A DNA stretch of 64,000 nucleotides from Klebsiella sp. RHBSTW-00484 (GTDB taxonomy: Bacteria; Pseudomonadota; Gammaproteobacteria; Enterobacterales; Enterobacteriaceae). Location: positions 3,224,001 to 3,288,000 of the forward strand of contig NZ_CP055481.1 in NCBI RefSeq assembly GCF_013705725.1, given 5' to 3'. Position numbers and translations under genes: made by a program. Below, piece by piece: positions 2,718 through 45,248 of this stretch (positions are counted from its first letter, which is position 1; the number at the start of each line of letters is the position of its first letter). A model generated the notes under the pieces. The model saw only the letters and a list, made by a program, of their open reading frames with translations, was not told the DNA's origin and did not search any database.

Positions 2718-2844
<127 letters not shown>

Positions 2845-2995
2845 GTCTATGAAGAGTCGCAGGCAGATACCAGCCTTCCCCCGTCGGTAACCAAAAATAA
2901 GCGCAAGAATATGCAAGTCAGTAACAAGCTGATGACAGCGCGGCTGTAGCCTAAGGCGTCAGAATGACGGGTACAACACTCACGGGAGAGACATT

Positions 2996-6478: not shown

Positions 6479-6605
6479 TATACCCTAAATAATTCGAGTT
6501 GCATGAAGGCGGCAAGAGAGGGAGTCCCCTGGAGCTTACTAAAGTAAGTGACTGGGGTGAGCGAGCGCTGGCAACGCACATGCAACTTGAAGTATGACGG
6601 GTATA
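6479..6605 (+). repeat. ERIC (IRU) element, full length 127 bp
   Basis: Full ERIC from TATACCCTAAATAATTCGAG to TATGACGGGTATA, containing AAGTAAGTGACTGGGGTGAG. It occupies the divergent promoter region between the DppA-like and PepT-like genes. Confidence 0.95.
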
Positions 6606-6684
6606 GCTTGTTGTTTTGCCGTTCATACATAACACTAAAGCCTCATTGCAAACACCTGAAAAAACAAATAAAGAAGGAATCACT

Positions 6685-10638: not shown

Positions 10639-10676
10639 TATATGGACACCTCCCGTGATGCAAGCTATTTTTTGTG

Positions 10677-10899
10677 TGAGTCACCAGGGTAAGTTGCGTT
10701 CGTATATCCGGCCTCTCTTTCGGTACCGTCGTACCCGGGCCATGATGTGTTCTGCGCACCTGCTTCCTTTCGGGCTATCGGCTTTGCTTCGCAGGGAGCC
10801 TTCGGACAGGCCGGATTTCTCAGGTGCTGGTCTTACCGGTTACTCATCACGCTAAATCGCTTCGCAATCTCACGACAGGGTTACTGCTCTTTTTACTGC
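10677..10899 (-). ncRNA. Predicted guide (bridge/seeker) RNA of IS copy 1
   Basis: Non-coding right end of the IS, identical to copy 2 in the segments inspected. Minus-strand guide segments: CCTGTCCG (10803-10810), TAGCCCG (10771-10777), CACATC (10744-10749) and ATATACG (10701-10707). They correspond to right target, left target, left IS end and right IS end. RNA ends are guesses. Confidence 0.6.
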
Positions 10900-10918
10900 A
10901 TGGCTCACGGGGCGTCGG

Positions 10919-11941
10919 TTAACCGGCGACCCGTGAACCATGGTAATCTTCTCCGCGACTCATCACCGCCCACGCTATCCGCACATTCTTGTTCGCCAGC
11001 GCCACCGTCGCGATATTCCGGTTCCGTCTTTCCGCCACCGACTGCAGCCACTGGCTCCGCCGGTCTTCTTTGCCTGCACATGTCTTCAGAACTGACCGTG
11101 CCCCGTGGATGACCAGCGTACGCAGGTAGCTGTCACCCCGCTTGCTGATATGCCCCAGCTGCTGCTTACCGCCGCTTGAGTGCTGCCGGGGAACCAGCCC
11201 CACATAAGCCGCCATCTCCCGACCGTTCTTAAACTGCGTCGCGTCACCCAACAACGCCACCATCGCGCTGGCGGTTATCACGCCGATACCTTCTATTTTC
11301 ATCAGCCGCTGGATGCAGATATCTTCCCGCGCCGCCTCTGCGAGCCGCCGGTCATGCCCCGCCACCCGGTCATCCAGCATCCGCAGCTCTTCGGCCAGCT
11401 CGCACAGCAGGCGCATAAACCGGTCATCCCACTGCTCCTGCTGTGACAGTATCTCCGGCAGCGCCTTACGCAACTGGCTGATGCCGACCGGCAGCACCAC
11501 GCCGAATTCGCCCAGAAAGCCCCGTATCTCGTTGCACAGCGCCGTGCGGCTTTTTATCACTCTGGCCCGCACGCGATGCTCAGCCTGAAGAGTCTGCTGG
11601 CGCTCTGTCTTAACCGCGACGAAGCGCATGGCGGGGCGGCTGATGGCTTCACAGATGGCTTCGGCATCGTTGGCATCATTCTTGTTGCCCCTGAGGTAGG
11701 GCTTAACAAACTTCGGGGGAATAATGTGCACGGTATGTCCCATGCGGGTGAGTTCGCGGGCCCAGTAGTGGGATGACGCGCAGGCTTCAATCCCGACGGT
11801 GCAGGGAGCCAGCTGAGAGAAATAAGCGTGCATGTGGGCGCGGCGGAGAGATTTCCGCACGACGACATGTTCATGGTGATCCACAGCATGGATCTGAAAG
11901 ACATTTTTTGCCAGGTCAAGACCGATACGTTTAATATTCAT
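10919..11941 (-). CDS. IS110-family transposase, copy 1
   Basis: A 340-residue DEDD transposase (recombinase). RuvC-like acidic residues are Asp9 (GLDLAKNVF), Glu52 (IEACASSHYW), Asp89 and Asp92 (KNDANDAEA). The C-terminal Tnp_20 domain holds EGIGVITASAMVALLGD and the PRQHSSGGK segment with the candidate nucleophilic serine (Ser255/256). The frame is open upstream to 12154, but translation should start at MNIKRIGLDL, where the ATG follows AGGAGG. It differs from copy 2 by only four residues, all between 49 and 84 (V/I, A/S, H/R, R/K). Confidence 0.95.
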   Translation of the reverse strand: MNIKRIGLDLAKNVFQIHAVDHHEHVVVRKSLRRAHMHAYFSQLAPCTVGIEACASSHYWARELTRMGHTVHIIPPKFVKPYLRGNKNDANDAEAICEAISRPAMRFVAVKTERQQTLQAEHRVRARVIKSRTALCNEIRGFLGEFGVVLPVGISQLRKALPEILSQQEQWDDRFMRLLCELAEELRMLDDRVAGHDRRLAEAAREDICIQRLMKIEGIGVITASAMVALLGDATQFKNGREMAAYVGLVPRQHSSGGKQQLGHISKRGDSYLRTLVIHGARSVLKTCAGKEDRRSQWLQSVAERRNRNIATVALANKNVRIAWAVMSRGEDYHGSRVAG

Positions 11942-12058
11942 GGTGGACACCTCCTCCTGTGGACTGCAGGTAACACTTCCAGTCTGGCACGTTCTGATGC
12001 CGTAAGGTGGGAGGTGTCCATCACATCGGGCTACAGGTTCGAGCGATCTTTGGGTGTT

Positions 12059-15323: not shown

Positions 15324-15518
15324 TATACCCTAAATAATTCGAGTTGCAGGACAAAACGGTTAACCGTTTTGAACAGCGCTTGCGCTGGCCCTAAAAGGGT
15401 GAGTCCCGTAGGGGCGAATCACGCGGCAAGTGAGCGAATCCCCGGGAGCTTACTCTGGTAAGTGACTGGGGTGAACGAGCGCGGCCAACACACCTGCAAC
15501 TTGAAGTATGACGGGTAT
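15324..15518 (+). repeat. ERIC element with ~70-bp internal insertion
   Basis: Outer parts match ERIC (TATACCCTAAATAATTCGAG at the left, TTGAAGTATGACGGGTAT at the right), but the length is 195 bp instead of 127. The additional segment, about 15351-15421, is a string of small palindromes: AAAACGGTTAACCGTTTT, AGCGCTTGCGCT and GCCCTAAAAGGG. It lies in the divergent region between the ycaC-like and DUF2235 genes. Confidence 0.9.
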
Positions 15519-15683
15519 GGTTAACAGGGCTGATAATAGTGTAATAACTAGCTGAGGATTAGCCGCTGAATGTGAGACGCATTGTCCCATTTGCGGAACA
15601 AGCCGTGGCATACTGCTAAAAAGCAACACCAACCGCAGGGATACTCCTGGCACTTTTTTGTCTTTGATTTCAGGAAGAAAATA

Positions 15684-30833: not shown

Positions 30834-31000
30834 TCAGTCAGCGGTCTTCATGTTGCCAATAAGTTAATATGGTGTATTTTATGCCAGAGCCACTGGATGA
30901 GTGAAAGCGACTTAATTTCATTACAACATGAGCTATCTTCATGATCTTCTGTCGCTGATTTGGCGCCAGGCCAATCCTGTTCACAATCTGCCTACCCCAG

Positions 31001-31478
31001 CTTATCGTCGATGGTAAAAAAATTACCGTGTACGCAGAGAAAGCGCAGGTGCGAAAAAGGTGCTGATTTCCGCGCCAGCAGGCGACATGACCACCCTCCA
31101 CGCCTATACCGGCACCCAGTCGTTGGTTGATGGCCCACGCGGTAAACTAAAAGGCCATGCCCAGCACGTACCGACCAAAACAGGATCGGTAACGGAACTG
31201 GTCTCCGTGCTGGCGAAAAAAACCACCGCTGAAGAGGTCAATCAGGCGATGAAAAACGCGGCGACGAACAATGAATCGTTCGGCTATACCGAAGAGGAAA
31301 TTATCTCGTCAGATGTGATTGGTAGGCAGGTAGGCATTTCGGTTCAATTTACGACGCCACGCAGCTTGAGATAGTCGAAGCCGGTGATGTTCAGTTGGTC
31401 AAAACCGTGACCTGGTACGATAACGAATATGGCTTTGTCACCCAGCTCATTCGCGTGCTGGATAAATTCGCAAAATAA
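31001..31478 (+). pseudogene. gapC: gapC remnant (glyceraldehyde-3-phosphate dehydrogenase)
   Basis: Pieces of GapC appear in order: [84 protein letters not shown], then after a frameshift [20 protein letters not shown] and [18 protein letters not shown]. Against intact GapC, the N-terminal NAD-fold start, the segment between AEKA and KKVLIS, the segment with the catalytic SCTTNC cysteine, and the segment after GPRG are missing. It cannot encode an active enzyme. GapC is also a pseudogene in E. coli K-12. A REP and IS copy 2 lie just downstream. Confidence 0.9.
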
Positions 31479-31540
31479 ACAGCAAGCAGCAGTACCTTGC
31501 CTGGCTGGCAAAAACCACACACTCCTCGTAACCCCATCCC

Positions 31541-31608: not shown

Positions 31609-31646
31609 GGGACCGCAGACGGCTCAAAACTTGTAGCCCGATGTGA

Positions 31647-31723
31647 TGGACACCTCCCACCTTACGGCATCAGAACGTGCCAGACTGGAAGTGTTACCTG
31701 CAGTCCACAGGAGGAGGTGTCCA
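31647..31723 (+). promoter_or_regulatory. Left-end fold that can hide the transposase ribosome-binding site
   Basis: The left subterminal repeat TGGACACCTCC (31647-31657) is perfectly complementary to GGAGGTGTCCA at 31713-31723, which contains most of the Shine-Dalgarno AGGAGG (31712-31717), 8 nt before the ATG at 31726. RNA entering from outside the IS would pair the two; RNA started inside the left end would lack the first arm. Same arrangement in copy 1 (11944-12020). Confidence 0.6.
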
Positions 31724-31725
31724 CC

Positions 31726-32748
31726 ATGAATATTAAACGTATCGGTCTTGACCTGGCAAAAAATGTCTTTCAGATCCATGCTGTGGATCACCATGAACAT
31801 GTCGTCGTGCGGAAATCTCTCCGCCGCGCCCACATGCACGCTTATTTCTCTCAGCTGGCTCCCTGCACCATCGGGATTGAAGCCTGCGCATCATCCCACT
31901 ACTGGTCCCGCGAACTCACCCGCATGGGGCATACCGTGCGCATTATTCCCCCGAAATTCGTCAAGCCTTACCTCAAAGGCAACAAGAATGATGCCAACGA
32001 TGCCGAAGCCATCTGTGAAGCCATCAGCCGCCCCGCCATGCGCTTCGTCGCGGTTAAGACAGAGCGCCAGCAGACCCTTCAGGCGGAGCATCGCGTGCGG
32101 GCCAGAGTGATAAAAAGCCGCACGGCGCTGTGCAACGAGATACGGGGCTTTCTGGGCGAATTCGGCGTGGTGCTGCCGGTCGGCATCAGCCAGTTGCGTA
32201 AGGCGCTGCCGGAGATACTGTCACAGCAGGAGCAGTGGGATGACCGGTTTATGCGCCTGCTGTGCGAGCTGGCCGAAGAGCTGCGGATGCTGGATGACCG
32301 GGTGGCGGGGCATGACCGGCGGCTCGCAGAGGCGGCGCGGGAAGATATCTGCATCCAGCGGCTGATGAAAATAGAAGGTATCGGCGTGATAACCGCCAGC
32401 GCGATGGTGGCGTTGTTGGGTGACGCGACGCAGTTTAAGAACGGTCGGGAGATGGCGGCTTATGTGGGGCTGGTTCCCCGGCAGCACTCAAGCGGCGGTA
32501 AGCAGCAGCTGGGGCATATCAGCAAGCGGGGTGACAGCTACCTGCGTACGCTGGTCATCCACGGGGCACGGTCAGTTCTGAAGACATGTGCAGGCAAAGA
32601 AGACCGGCGGAGCCAGTGGCTGCAGTCGGTGGCGGAAAGACGGAACCGGAATATCGCGACGGTGGCGCTGGCGAACAAGAATGTGCGGATAGCGTGGGCG
32701 GTGATGAGTCGCGGAGAAGATTACCATGGTTCACGGGTCGCCGGTTAA
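31726..32748 (+). CDS. IS110-family transposase, copy 2
   Basis: A 340-residue DEDD transposase with Asp9, Glu52, Asp89 and Asp92 and the C-terminal HSSGGK serine motif intact. ATG at 31726 with AGGAGG upstream; longer open frames run out of the IS and are not real. Compared with copy 1 the changes cluster between nucleotides ~31870 and ~32090, with the remainder essentially identical. The last codons lie within a hairpin (32726-32767). Confidence 0.95.
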   Translation: MNIKRIGLDLAKNVFQIHAVDHHEHVVVRKSLRRAHMHAYFSQLAPCTIGIEACASSHYWSRELTRMGHTVRIIPPKFVKPYLKGNKNDANDAEAICEAISRPAMRFVAVKTERQQTLQAEHRVRARVIKSRTALCNEIRGFLGEFGVVLPVGISQLRKALPEILSQQEQWDDRFMRLLCELAEELRMLDDRVAGHDRRLAEAAREDICIQRLMKIEGIGVITASAMVALLGDATQFKNGREMAAYVGLVPRQHSSGGKQQLGHISKRGDSYLRTLVIHGARSVLKTCAGKEDRRSQWLQSVAERRNRNIATVALANKNVRIAWAVMSRGEDYHGSRVAG

Positions 32749-32767
32749 CCGACACCCCGTGAACCAT
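32726..32767 (+). terminator. Hairpin spanning the transposase stop codon
   Basis: ATGGTTCACGGG (32726-32737) pairs perfectly with CCCGTGAACCAT (32756-32767); inside is the palindrome CGGTTAACCG containing the TAA stop. No T tract, so it may be a processing or structural boundary between the mRNA and the guide RNA rather than a terminator. Copy 1 has a G:U pair at one position. Confidence 0.5.
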
Positions 32768-32990
32768 GCAGTAAAAAGAGCAGTAACCCTGTCGTGAGAT
32801 TGCGAAGCGATTTAGCGTGATGAGTAACCGGTAAGACCAGCACCTGAGAAATCCGGCCTGTCCGAAGGCTCCCTGCGAAGCAAAGCCGATAGCCCGAAAG
32901 GAAGCAGGTGCGCAGAACACATCATGGCCCGGGTACGACGGTACCGAAAGAGAGGCCGGATATACGAACGCAACTTACCCTGGTGACTCA
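32768..32990 (+). ncRNA. Predicted guide (bridge/seeker) RNA of IS copy 2
   Basis: Non-coding right end. A stem GCACCTG (32840-32846) / CAGGTGC (32905-32911) encloses CCTGTCCG (32857-32864), the reverse complement of right target CGGACAGG, and TAGCCCG (32890-32896), equal to the left target. A second loop holds CACATC (32918-32923), the reverse complement of GATGTG at the left IS end, and ATATACG (32960-32966), equal to the right IS end plus core CG. This is the two-loop design of IS110/IS1111 guide RNAs. Exact RNA ends are not known. Confidence 0.65.
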
Positions 32991-33028
32991 CACAAAAAAT
33001 AGCTTGCATCACGGGAGGTGTCCATATA

Positions 33029-33059
33029 CGGACAGATGCGCAGCATCGCCTCCGGGAGG
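33029..33059 (+). repeat. REP half interrupted by IS copy 2
   Basis: CGGACAGATGCGCAGCATCG followed by CCTCCGGGAGG. Continues GTAGCCCG at 31633-31640 across the IS. Confidence 0.85.
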
Positions 33060-33076: not shown

Positions 33077-34516
33077 TTAGGCTTGCAAATAGACTACCTG
33101 AGTTTGCAGATACTCATTCAGGCCATGACGCCCATCTGCACCGCCAATTCCCGATTTACGCCATCCGGCATGGAAGCCCTGCATCGCTTCAAAGTTTTCG
33201 CGGTTGATGTAGGTTTCGCCGAACTTCAGCCCTTTTATCGCCTTCATGGCAACGTTCAGATCCCGCGTATAAATGGAAGAGGTCAGACCATAATCGCTGT
33301 CGTTAGCCATTGCCAGCGCCTCTTCGAGCGTGTCAAACGCCACCACCGGCAGTACCGGGCCAAACGTCTCTTCATGAACGATGTCCATCTCCTGACGCAC
33401 ATCCAGCAGTAGCGTCGGCGGATAAAAATAGCCCTTGCCTGCGACAGCTTTACCACCAAGGACAACGCGGGCGCCCTGCGCGACCGCCTTCGCCACCTTC
33501 TGCTCAACGCGCTCCAGCGCGGCGGCGTTGATCAACGGCCCCATGGCGATATCGTCACGTGATGCCGGGTCGCCAAACTGCACCGCTTTCATCGCTTCGC
33601 CAAGTCGGTTAACGAAGCGGTCGTAAATCCCTTTTTGCACATACACGCGCTCGACGCAGTTACACACCTGCCCGGTATTGATGACTCGTGAATCCACCAC
33701 CGCTTTGACCGCCAGCTCGATATCCGCATCATCCATCACGATAGCGGGCGCTTTACCACCCAGCTCAAGGCAAACTTTGGTGATGTTTTTCGCCGCCGCA
33801 GCCATGATTTTCTCACCCGCCACCACGCTGCCGGTCATGCTAACCATCGCCACTTTCGGGTTACCCGCCAGCTCCTGGCCCACGGTTTCGCCACGGCCCA
33901 GCACCATGTTAAATACGCCCTTCGGCAGTCCGATCTCATGAACAATTTGCGCAAAGGCGATGGCGTTATTTGGCGTAAATTCACTCGGTTTAATGACGAT
34001 GGTATTGCCGGTAATCAACGCAGGAGCCAGCTTGCGGGCAATCAGGAAAAACGGGAAGTTCCACGGCAGGATACCGGTCGTTACGCCCAGCGCACGTTTA
34101 AAGACTAGTATGTTTTCGCCCGGACGGTCACTCTGGAGGATTTCACCTTCATAACGGCGTGCCCATTCGGCCATGTAATCGAGGTAATCAGCGGTAAATG
34201 AGACTTCGACTGCCGCCAGTTGCTGAATTTTCCCACCTTCGGCGACAATCAGCGCGGCGATTTCATCCGCCCGCTCGCGAATACCGGCAGCAATTTTGCG
34301 CAACCACCCCGCCCGCTCAATAGCTGGCAGCGCTTCCCAACCGGGCTGTGCGCGTTCAGCTGCCTGAATCGCCCGTTGTGCATCCTCCGCGCTCCCGTCA
34401 GGAATGCGCGAAAGCAGCGCTTCCGTCGCCGGGTTGATAACATCAATCCAGGCATCACCGCGGCCAGATTCAAACTGACCGTCAATGTACATAGGGTGTT
34501 GAACGGGTGCTGTCAT
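33077..34516 (-). CDS. aldA: Lactaldehyde/glycolaldehyde dehydrogenase AldA
   Basis: A 479-residue NAD-dependent aldehyde dehydrogenase, the same length as E. coli AldA, oxidising L-lactaldehyde and glycolaldehyde in fucose, rhamnose and glycol use. Visible are GILPWNFPFFLIARKLAPAL (Asn of the active site), VCLELGGKAPAIV (general base Glu) and INTGQVCNCVERV (nucleophilic Cys). The ATG at 34516 follows a GGAG-containing site; the frame open to 34549 is longer than the family. It is the intact neighbour of the decayed gapC, separated from it by IS copy 2. Confidence 0.96.
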   Translation of the reverse strand: MTAPVQHPMYIDGQFESGRGDAWIDVINPATEALLSRIPDGSAEDAQRAIQAAERAQPGWEALPAIERAGWLRKIAAGIRERADEIAALIVAEGGKIQQLAAVEVSFTADYLDYMAEWARRYEGEILQSDRPGENILVFKRALGVTTGILPWNFPFFLIARKLAPALITGNTIVIKPSEFTPNNAIAFAQIVHEIGLPKGVFNMVLGRGETVGQELAGNPKVAMVSMTGSVVAGEKIMAAAAKNITKVCLELGGKAPAIVMDDADIELAVKAVVDSRVINTGQVCNCVERVYVQKGIYDRFVNRLGEAMKAVQFGDPASRDDIAMGPLINAAALERVEQKVAKAVAQGARVVLGGKAVAGKGYFYPPTLLLDVRQEMDIVHEETFGPVLPVVAFDTLEEALAMANDSDYGLTSSIYTRDLNVAMKAIKGLKFGETYINRENFEAMQGFHAGWRKSGIGGADGRHGLNEYLQTQVVYLQA

Positions 34517-34676
34517 GGTTTGCTCCTGTGGAGTTATTGTTTTTAACAAGTGAATTTAATGTTAAAAACTATCTCCTGAACGGCAAATCGACAGTCCGGA
34601 CGCGCATTATTGTGAGTTATTTCATAAAAATAGATGAGTTAGACGCAGAAAAAATCACAATTTCGTAACACATAAT

Positions 34677-45115: not shown

Positions 45116-45242
45116 TATACCCGTCATACTTCAATTTGCTTATGTGTTGGCTACGCTCGCTCACCCCAGTCACATAGTTATCTATGCTCCTGGGGATTCA
45201 CTCCCTTGCCGCCTTTAAGCAACTAGAATTATTTAGGGTATA
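45116..45242 (-). repeat. ERIC (IRU) element, reverse orientation
   Basis: Full 127 bp, from TATACCCGTCATACTTCAA to CTAGAATTATTTAGGGTATA, with GCTCCTGGGGATTCACTCCC inside. It separates paralogues A and B. Confidence 0.93.
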
Positions 45243-45248
45243 GATATT

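Follow-up and report, generated by a model that had tools for sequence, protein, structure and literature searches.

A predicted two-loop guide RNA in the right end of an IS1111-type insertion sequence of Klebsiella, and its fit to REP insertion sites

The window analysed here, a 64,000-nucleotide stretch of the chromosome of Klebsiella sp. RHBSTW-00484, contains an insertion sequence of the IS1111 type at positions 31639–33028 on the + strand. This 1390 bp element begins with the left core CG and finishes at the right-end ATA, limits which were set by comparing its copies, their ends and flanks, and an empty site. Its transposase gene (31726–32748, +) is intact, without internal stops, and encodes a protein of 340 amino acids with DEDD/RuvC and Transposase_20 domains (matches to PF01548 and PF02371), which also matches NF033542, the NCBI model for RNA-guided transposases of the IS110 family. 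Published descriptions of the IS1111 family give transposases of 330–350 amino acids with the motif GL-P----S(T)G, and subterminal inverted repeats of about 11–13 bp with 7- and 3-bp extensions (PMC11187229). In the window element the motif reads GLVPRQHSSG, and the repeats (left, ATGGACACCTCCC at 31646–31658, +; right, 33013–33025, reading ATGGACACCTCCC on the − strand) are identical at 13 of 13 bp, the extensions beyond them being CGATGTG (7 bp) at the left end and ATA (3 bp) at the right. A long non-coding region of 280 bp (32749–33028) follows on the 3' side of the transposase gene, again as in IS1111 elements. The arrangement is not that of the IS110 group (IS621 type), since 87 bp of left end precede the gene, the predicted RNA lies in the right end, and the 13-bp repeats are present.

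The element is flanked by the two halves of its target, both on the + strand. The left half, TAGCCCG (31634–31640), includes the core CG (31639–31640) and is identical in 26 of 26 copies, while the right half, CGGACAGA (33029–33036), begins with the core CG (33029–33030) and matches the corresponding guide at 7 of 8 positions. A second copy in the window, at 10639–12028 on the − strand (L019), has the right flank CGGGCAAG, a match at 6 of 8. Upstream of the element, at about 30980–31480, there are short frames resembling a broken glyceraldehyde-phosphate dehydrogenase gene, which we take to be gapC-like, and an aldehyde dehydrogenase gene (33077–34549, −) lies beside them. A repeat of 96–133 bp, presumably of the enterobacterial ERIC type, occurs at four places in the window (2718–2845, 6479–6606, 15393–15520 and 45116–45248).

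The predicted guide RNA is encoded on the + strand of the non-coding right end, where its conserved part of about 148 nt spans 32830–32977, with ends that are approximate and based on an alignment of 16 elements and on structure counts. A first stem-loop of 72 nt (32840–32911), closed by the arms GCACCTG (32840–32846) and CAGGTGC (32905–32911), contains both target guides: the right target guide CCTGTCCG (32857–32864), which is the complement of CGGACAGG, and the left target guide TAGCCCG (32890–32896), which has the same sense as the top strand. Between them an apical hairpin (GGCT...AGCC, 32867–32887) is predicted in the fold of the window RNA and is partly kept in relatives. The left-end donor guide CACATC (32918–32923) is the complement of GATGTG at 31640–31645 and leaves the first core base unpaired; it is followed by a donor-side stem of four pairs between GGCC (32926–32929) and GGCC (32954–32957), and then by the right-end donor guide ATATACG (32960–32966), which equals the right IS end plus core (33024–33030). 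The four segments and the stem GCACCTG/CAGGTGC had been read from the window before this analysis, and we confirmed them base for base, together with the flank matches given above for the copies at 31.6 kb and 10.6 kb. The layout in that original prediction holds for the target segments, which do lie inside one stem-loop, but not for the donor segments, which lie on either side of a second stem instead of in a common open loop. As in IS1111 elements, the complement of the target's top strand precedes the match to its bottom strand, and relatives keep the same order. By analogy, the RNA is probably transcribed from the right end; the junction promoter is weak in the window element (7 of 12) and scores 8–11 in 15 of 18 other elements. 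A search of the window against Rfam gave no match.

Segments of 6–8 nt picked by eye might match their targets by chance, given that short words recur, and the single-sequence fold of this RNA is unremarkable, being only weakly better than that of shuffles (z = −1.47, with 16 of 200 as good). When the 280-bp right end was shuffled with dinucleotides preserved, however, no ordered pair of target guides exceeded 13 of 15 positions in 400 shuffles, compared with 15 of 15 in the real sequence, and none exceeded 14 of 15 in another 400 when any strand or order was allowed; none of the 400 reached the real match under either rule, and other elements fit their targets likewise. We consider coincidence of this kind to have a negligible probability. 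Because the z-score of the single-sequence fold is weak, the structure was tested instead by covariation in the alignment of 16 elements, which leaves out L127, L088 and L090. Both partner bases have changed at all eight pairs of the helix that closes the target loop, whereas in the donor-side stem two of the four pairs show double changes and the other two are invariant, hence uninformative. Standard pairs fill 97.8% of the cells for the three helices, compared with 30–37% when these are slid by 1–3 columns; shuffles averaged 77%, and none (0 of 500) was as high. Two hairpins, one at the apex of the target loop and one within the donor stem (about 32932–32945), align poorly across relatives and were excluded from this pair count.

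The host genome (6.94 Mb) carries 26 copies of the element at 99–100% identity and one at 78% (L027). All four guide segments are unchanged in each of the 26, one of which (L015) has a one-base deletion elsewhere, and all 26 share the same left target half and the same orientation. The original prediction held that the RNA programs insertion into REPs with some tolerance of mismatch, and proposed collecting every genomic copy to compare flanks with guides. Both claims are supported by the result: the left flank is TAGCCCG (7 of 7) throughout, and the right flank matches at 8 of 8 positions in 17 copies, 7 in six, 6 in two and 3 in one, which amounts to 7–8 of 8 in 23 of 26 and 6–8 of 8 in 25 of 26. 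On the right, 17 copies are flanked by CGGACAGG and four by CGGACAGA, with CGGTATAA, CGGTCAGC, CGGGCAGG, CGAACAGG and CGGGCAAG seen once each. Many copies at unrelated sites were not seen; the one exception, L009 (G000:C1:5515017–5516414), retains a perfect left half and matches the right guide only at CGG (3 of 8). It is flanked by the two parts of an open frame, presumably a TssA-type VI secretion gene, and a search of 20 genomes of the genus did not turn up its empty site. For another copy, L014, the uninterrupted sequence GTAGCCCGGACAGG is present at the matching place in two genomes (L135 in G297 and L137 in G296), and a one-base variant of it in two more (L138 and L139). The insertion point is therefore fixed, with no duplication beyond the shared CG.

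Since REPs are abundant, a fit of this kind could arise from REP preference alone, and unoccupied sites were therefore listed as a comparison. The host genome has 349 unoccupied GTAGCCCGGNNNV sites, of which 100 were listed and 86 of these are REP-like. Of the 26 occupied sites (two of which, L005 and L012, differ little in their flanks and are perhaps not independent), 21 carry the guide-matched variant ACAG, compared with 26 of the 100 unoccupied sites listed (Fisher p = 5e-7) or 26 of the 86 that are REP-like (Fisher p = 6e-6), among which it is the commonest variant. Exact TAGCCCGGACAGG sites number 66 in this genome, and the reversed control pattern is absent (0).

Relatives of the element provide cases of natural retargeting, which on this comparative evidence we regard as decisive for the guide reading. 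In G306, a genome of the same genus, there are seven copies with a transposase 78% identical to that in the window, in which the left guide is the same and the right guide is CTTATCCG. Their right flanks (CGGATAAG in four, CGGGTAAG in two and CGGACAAG in one) fit the changed guide at 7 or 8 of 8 positions in all seven, averaging 7.6 of 8 positions against that guide and 5.9 against the guide of the window element; conversely, the window element's right flanks match their own guide at a mean of 7.4 and the G306 guide at 5.6. The stem closing the target loop has changed in both arms, from GCACCTG/CAGGTGC to GCATCTG/CAGATGC, and ATAA is the commonest REP-like unoccupied variant in G306 among the sites listed (19 of 54; 100 listed of 129). 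In a genome of another genus, G370, the element (76% identity) has guides CAGGCCG and TTTATCCG, and here both guides and both flanks are changed. At least five copies are present (5 of 29 candidates were scored), with left flanks CAGGCCG (four) and TAGGCCG (one), and right flanks CGGATAAG (four) and CGGATAAC (one) that match the guide at 7 of 8 in 5 of 5. Most REPs of G370 among the sites listed begin with T, and a C at this position occurs in 21 of 97 AGGCC-type sites (100 listed of 388) compared with 4 of 5 occupied sites (p = 0.012).

Searches of plasmids and E. coli genomes for near-identical DNA yielded no copy, but a more distant search mode gave E. coli relatives, with a related piece in 207 of 5426 genomes and coverage of at least 80% in seven. 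We sampled six of these seven (two being the same strain) and a shorter match, L158, in which the end pair was not found. The six relics (L152–L157) are all annotated as frameshifted and share one site, next to a 5S rRNA gene and kgtP, so that they count as one event. Their left guide CAGGCCG faces the flanks TAGGCCG (four) or TAGGCCA (two), a match at 5–6 of 7, while their right guide CTTATCCA fits the flank TGGATAAG at 8 of 8 in 6 of 6. The 78% copy in the host genome, L027, was set aside as uninformative about retargeting, because its right guide has 6 matches in 8 positions to the one right flank there is, and the guide from G306 would fit that flank at least as well.

The same observations bear on the possibility that the transposase alone recognises REP DNA, the matches in the right end being captured REP fragments without a guiding role. 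Protein-driven REP targeting has precedent in the IS3-type elements IS1397 and ISKpn1 (PMC1525189), and protein and guide changes are unseparated in our comparison because the transposases of differently guided elements differ too (76–78% identity). Captured fragments would nevertheless account poorly for the distant relatives, in which the same guide positions match unrelated flanks that are not REP-like (TAACGTA/TAAAGCTA and TTTGTTA/TGAATAAA), for segments that lie on opposite strands at constant spacing within a covarying stem, or for donor segments that match the IS ends and not REPs. We judge this explanation to be very improbable, and both it and the chance reading were rejected on the strength of the shuffles, the relatives' flanks, the stem covariation and the donor-end matches.

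The fit of guides to flanks was compared over 19 elements, comprising the window element and 18 others with readable ends that are 38–78% identical to it. Among 40 loci checked for subterminal repeats, 10 duplicated an element that had been retained and 12 lacked a usable ATGG-type repeat; in L044, where two right-end-like repeats stand in tandem, the outer one was used, and the left flank of L034 is cut by a contig end. The guides fit their own flanks at a mean of 12.8 of 15 positions, compared with 10.3 for the flanks of other elements, and none of 20,000 random re-pairings was as good, in tests that ignore phylogeny. An element's own flanks are strictly the best fit in 8 of the 19, tie only with an element having the same flanks in four, and are not the best in seven (L034, L035, L037, L038, L040, L043 and L118). 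A held-out set of 12 plasmid loci included four without a repeat by our rule, three with chance repeats of at most 7 bp, and five with subterminal repeats of at least 12 bp; these last five fit at 13, 11, 15, 13 and 13 of 15 positions, the target of one (L167) being nearly that of L088. Re-pairing of the eight held-out elements with rule-given ends, three of them spurious, was as good in 17 of 20,000 trials, phylogeny again being ignored. At the junctions of L033–L044 the second core base mostly differs, with A on the left and G on the right, as if exchange took place between the two core bases and a match between donor and target were needed at the first only.

The donor segments follow the IS ends in a similar manner. 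In 18 of the 19 elements the right-end segment is identical, at 108 of 108 positions, to the right end with the first core base, in four versions (ATATAC, ATATAT, ATCTAT and ATAGAT), and the left-end segment is complementary to the left end at 83 of 90 bases, over five left-end versions; for neither segment was any of 20,000 re-pairings as good (phylogeny ignored). L088 was left out of this count, having been lost to the search pattern, and its second donor segment fits at 5 of 6. In the held-out set the right-end guide fits at 6 of 6 in all four elements in which it is readable (of five), including a new version, ATACAT, while the left-end guide is readable in two of the five and fits in one. 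Donor pairing has been predicted for three IS1111 elements (PMC11208160).

It could still be that only the target loop works, as a short target-only seekRNA, and that the donor-like segments reflect ancestry shared with the IS end. In ISEc11 an RNA of 82 nt is enough for transposition and performs better than the 154-nt form (PMC11187229), sizes close to those of the 72-nt target stem-loop and the conserved RNA of about 148 nt described here; by analogy, the shorter form may be the target loop alone and the longer one may add the donor loop. The left-end donor guide is also mismatched at one of five positions in seven elements (L027, L085, L034, L039, L040, L043 and L118). The exact agreement of the right-end segment through four versions of the IS end and a fifth in the held-out set, and the following of five left-end versions by the other segment, nonetheless argue for a donor loop, and we regard a purely target-directed RNA as unlikely.

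We therefore favour, with a probability of roughly 0.93, an IS1111 element with a two-loop RNA that guides its insertion into REPs. The four guides, the target with its empty site, the copy statistics, the guide covariation and the covarying stem are features of the sequences themselves, whereas an RNA–protein complex, a circular intermediate and strand exchange would be expected by analogy with studied relatives. In the proposed mechanism the first loop would pair with both halves of the enterobacterial REP, TAGCC-CG-GACAGG, presenting the complement of the right-half top strand and then that of the left-half bottom strand, and the second loop, following the same order, would pair with ATATA-CG-ATGTG, the junction at which the IS ends meet in the circular intermediate. 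By means of the RNA the transposase would align the CG cores of donor and target and then recombine them, a step which is probable because it is published for IS621 and, as regards the target part, for IS1111 elements; the IS would then land in REPs at one point and in one orientation. Slightly better than even odds may be given to a broader proposal, namely that in this Enterobacteriaceae clade the guide RNA evolves along with the REP dialect of its host, close relatives having guides fitted to the variants most common in their hosts (TAGCCCGGACAGG, TAGCCCGGATAAG and YAGGCCGGATAAG), and that IS1111 elements use a full bridge RNA with two loops, the donor loop being selected for pairing with the IS ends, although a target-loop RNA suffices in a plasmid assay.

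The RNA-guided mechanism of IS110 and IS1111 elements was published in 2024 under the names seekRNA and bridge RNA (PMC11187229; PMC11208160), and natural redirection has been described for ISEc11/ISXne4 (PMC11187229). The window element resembles the IS1111 seekRNA elements ISEc11, ISKpn4, ISPst6 and ISPa11 in the length and domains of the transposase, the subterminal repeats and their 7- and 3-bp extensions, the location of the RNA 3' of the gene, and the order of top-strand complement before bottom-strand match (PMC11187229). It differs from the published examples in element and target, and in retargeting between REP variants over many copies; the donor-end guides visible here do not figure in the accessible account of IS1111 seekRNAs (PMC11187229). 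ISPa11 of Pseudomonas aeruginosa, for which a bridge RNA has been predicted (PMC11208160), was found in 2006 at one point in REPs in 6 of 6 copies (PMC1525189). Compared by description, it is like the window element in being IS1111-type and in using a single REP point, with another REP sequence and another host. REP targeting by IS621 was reportedly described in 2003. This member of the IS110 group in E. coli likewise combines a two-loop RNA, one guide per half, a short core and a REP target (PMC11208160, PMC11208158). IS621 and other IS110-type elements carry the RNA in the left end with the opposite guide order, unlike the window element with its right-end RNA and long subterminal repeats. 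The C-terminal part of the window transposase matches the IS621 structure 8wt6 weakly (E = 1.5e-6) and ISCro4 9t56 with E = 7.4e-8.

RNA-guided recombination by IS110 and IS1111 elements is of wide interest in that a small protein together with a single RNA selects the site. The mechanism, REP targeting and one redirection being already known, what is new here is an unusually well-sampled IS1111 member: a natural series, counted over many whole-genome copies, in which a few guide bases have changed with the insertion sites changing alongside, and in which mismatch is tolerated in nature. Its added value is that the guides track the REP variants of their hosts and that the comparison provides evidence bearing on donor-end pairing by IS1111 RNAs. 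In the literature searched, which lay mostly outside subscription journals and bioRxiv, we found no paper on the window element or on guides following host REP variants.

IS5075 and IS4321 encode a transposase about 39% identical to that of the window element. Their target, according to the title of a 2003 paper, is the ends of Tn21-type transposons. They differ from the window element in having the right end AGA and the donor guide ATAGAT. An element in our set taken as IS5075-like (L090, 38% identical) has guides that fit its flanks at 14 of 15 positions and serves as a rough positive control. The host genome also has eight places with a 38–39% identical IS5075-like transposase (contigs C2, C3 and C5) and ten with a 26% identical IS110-type transposase; several RNA-guided IS lineages co-occur in it.
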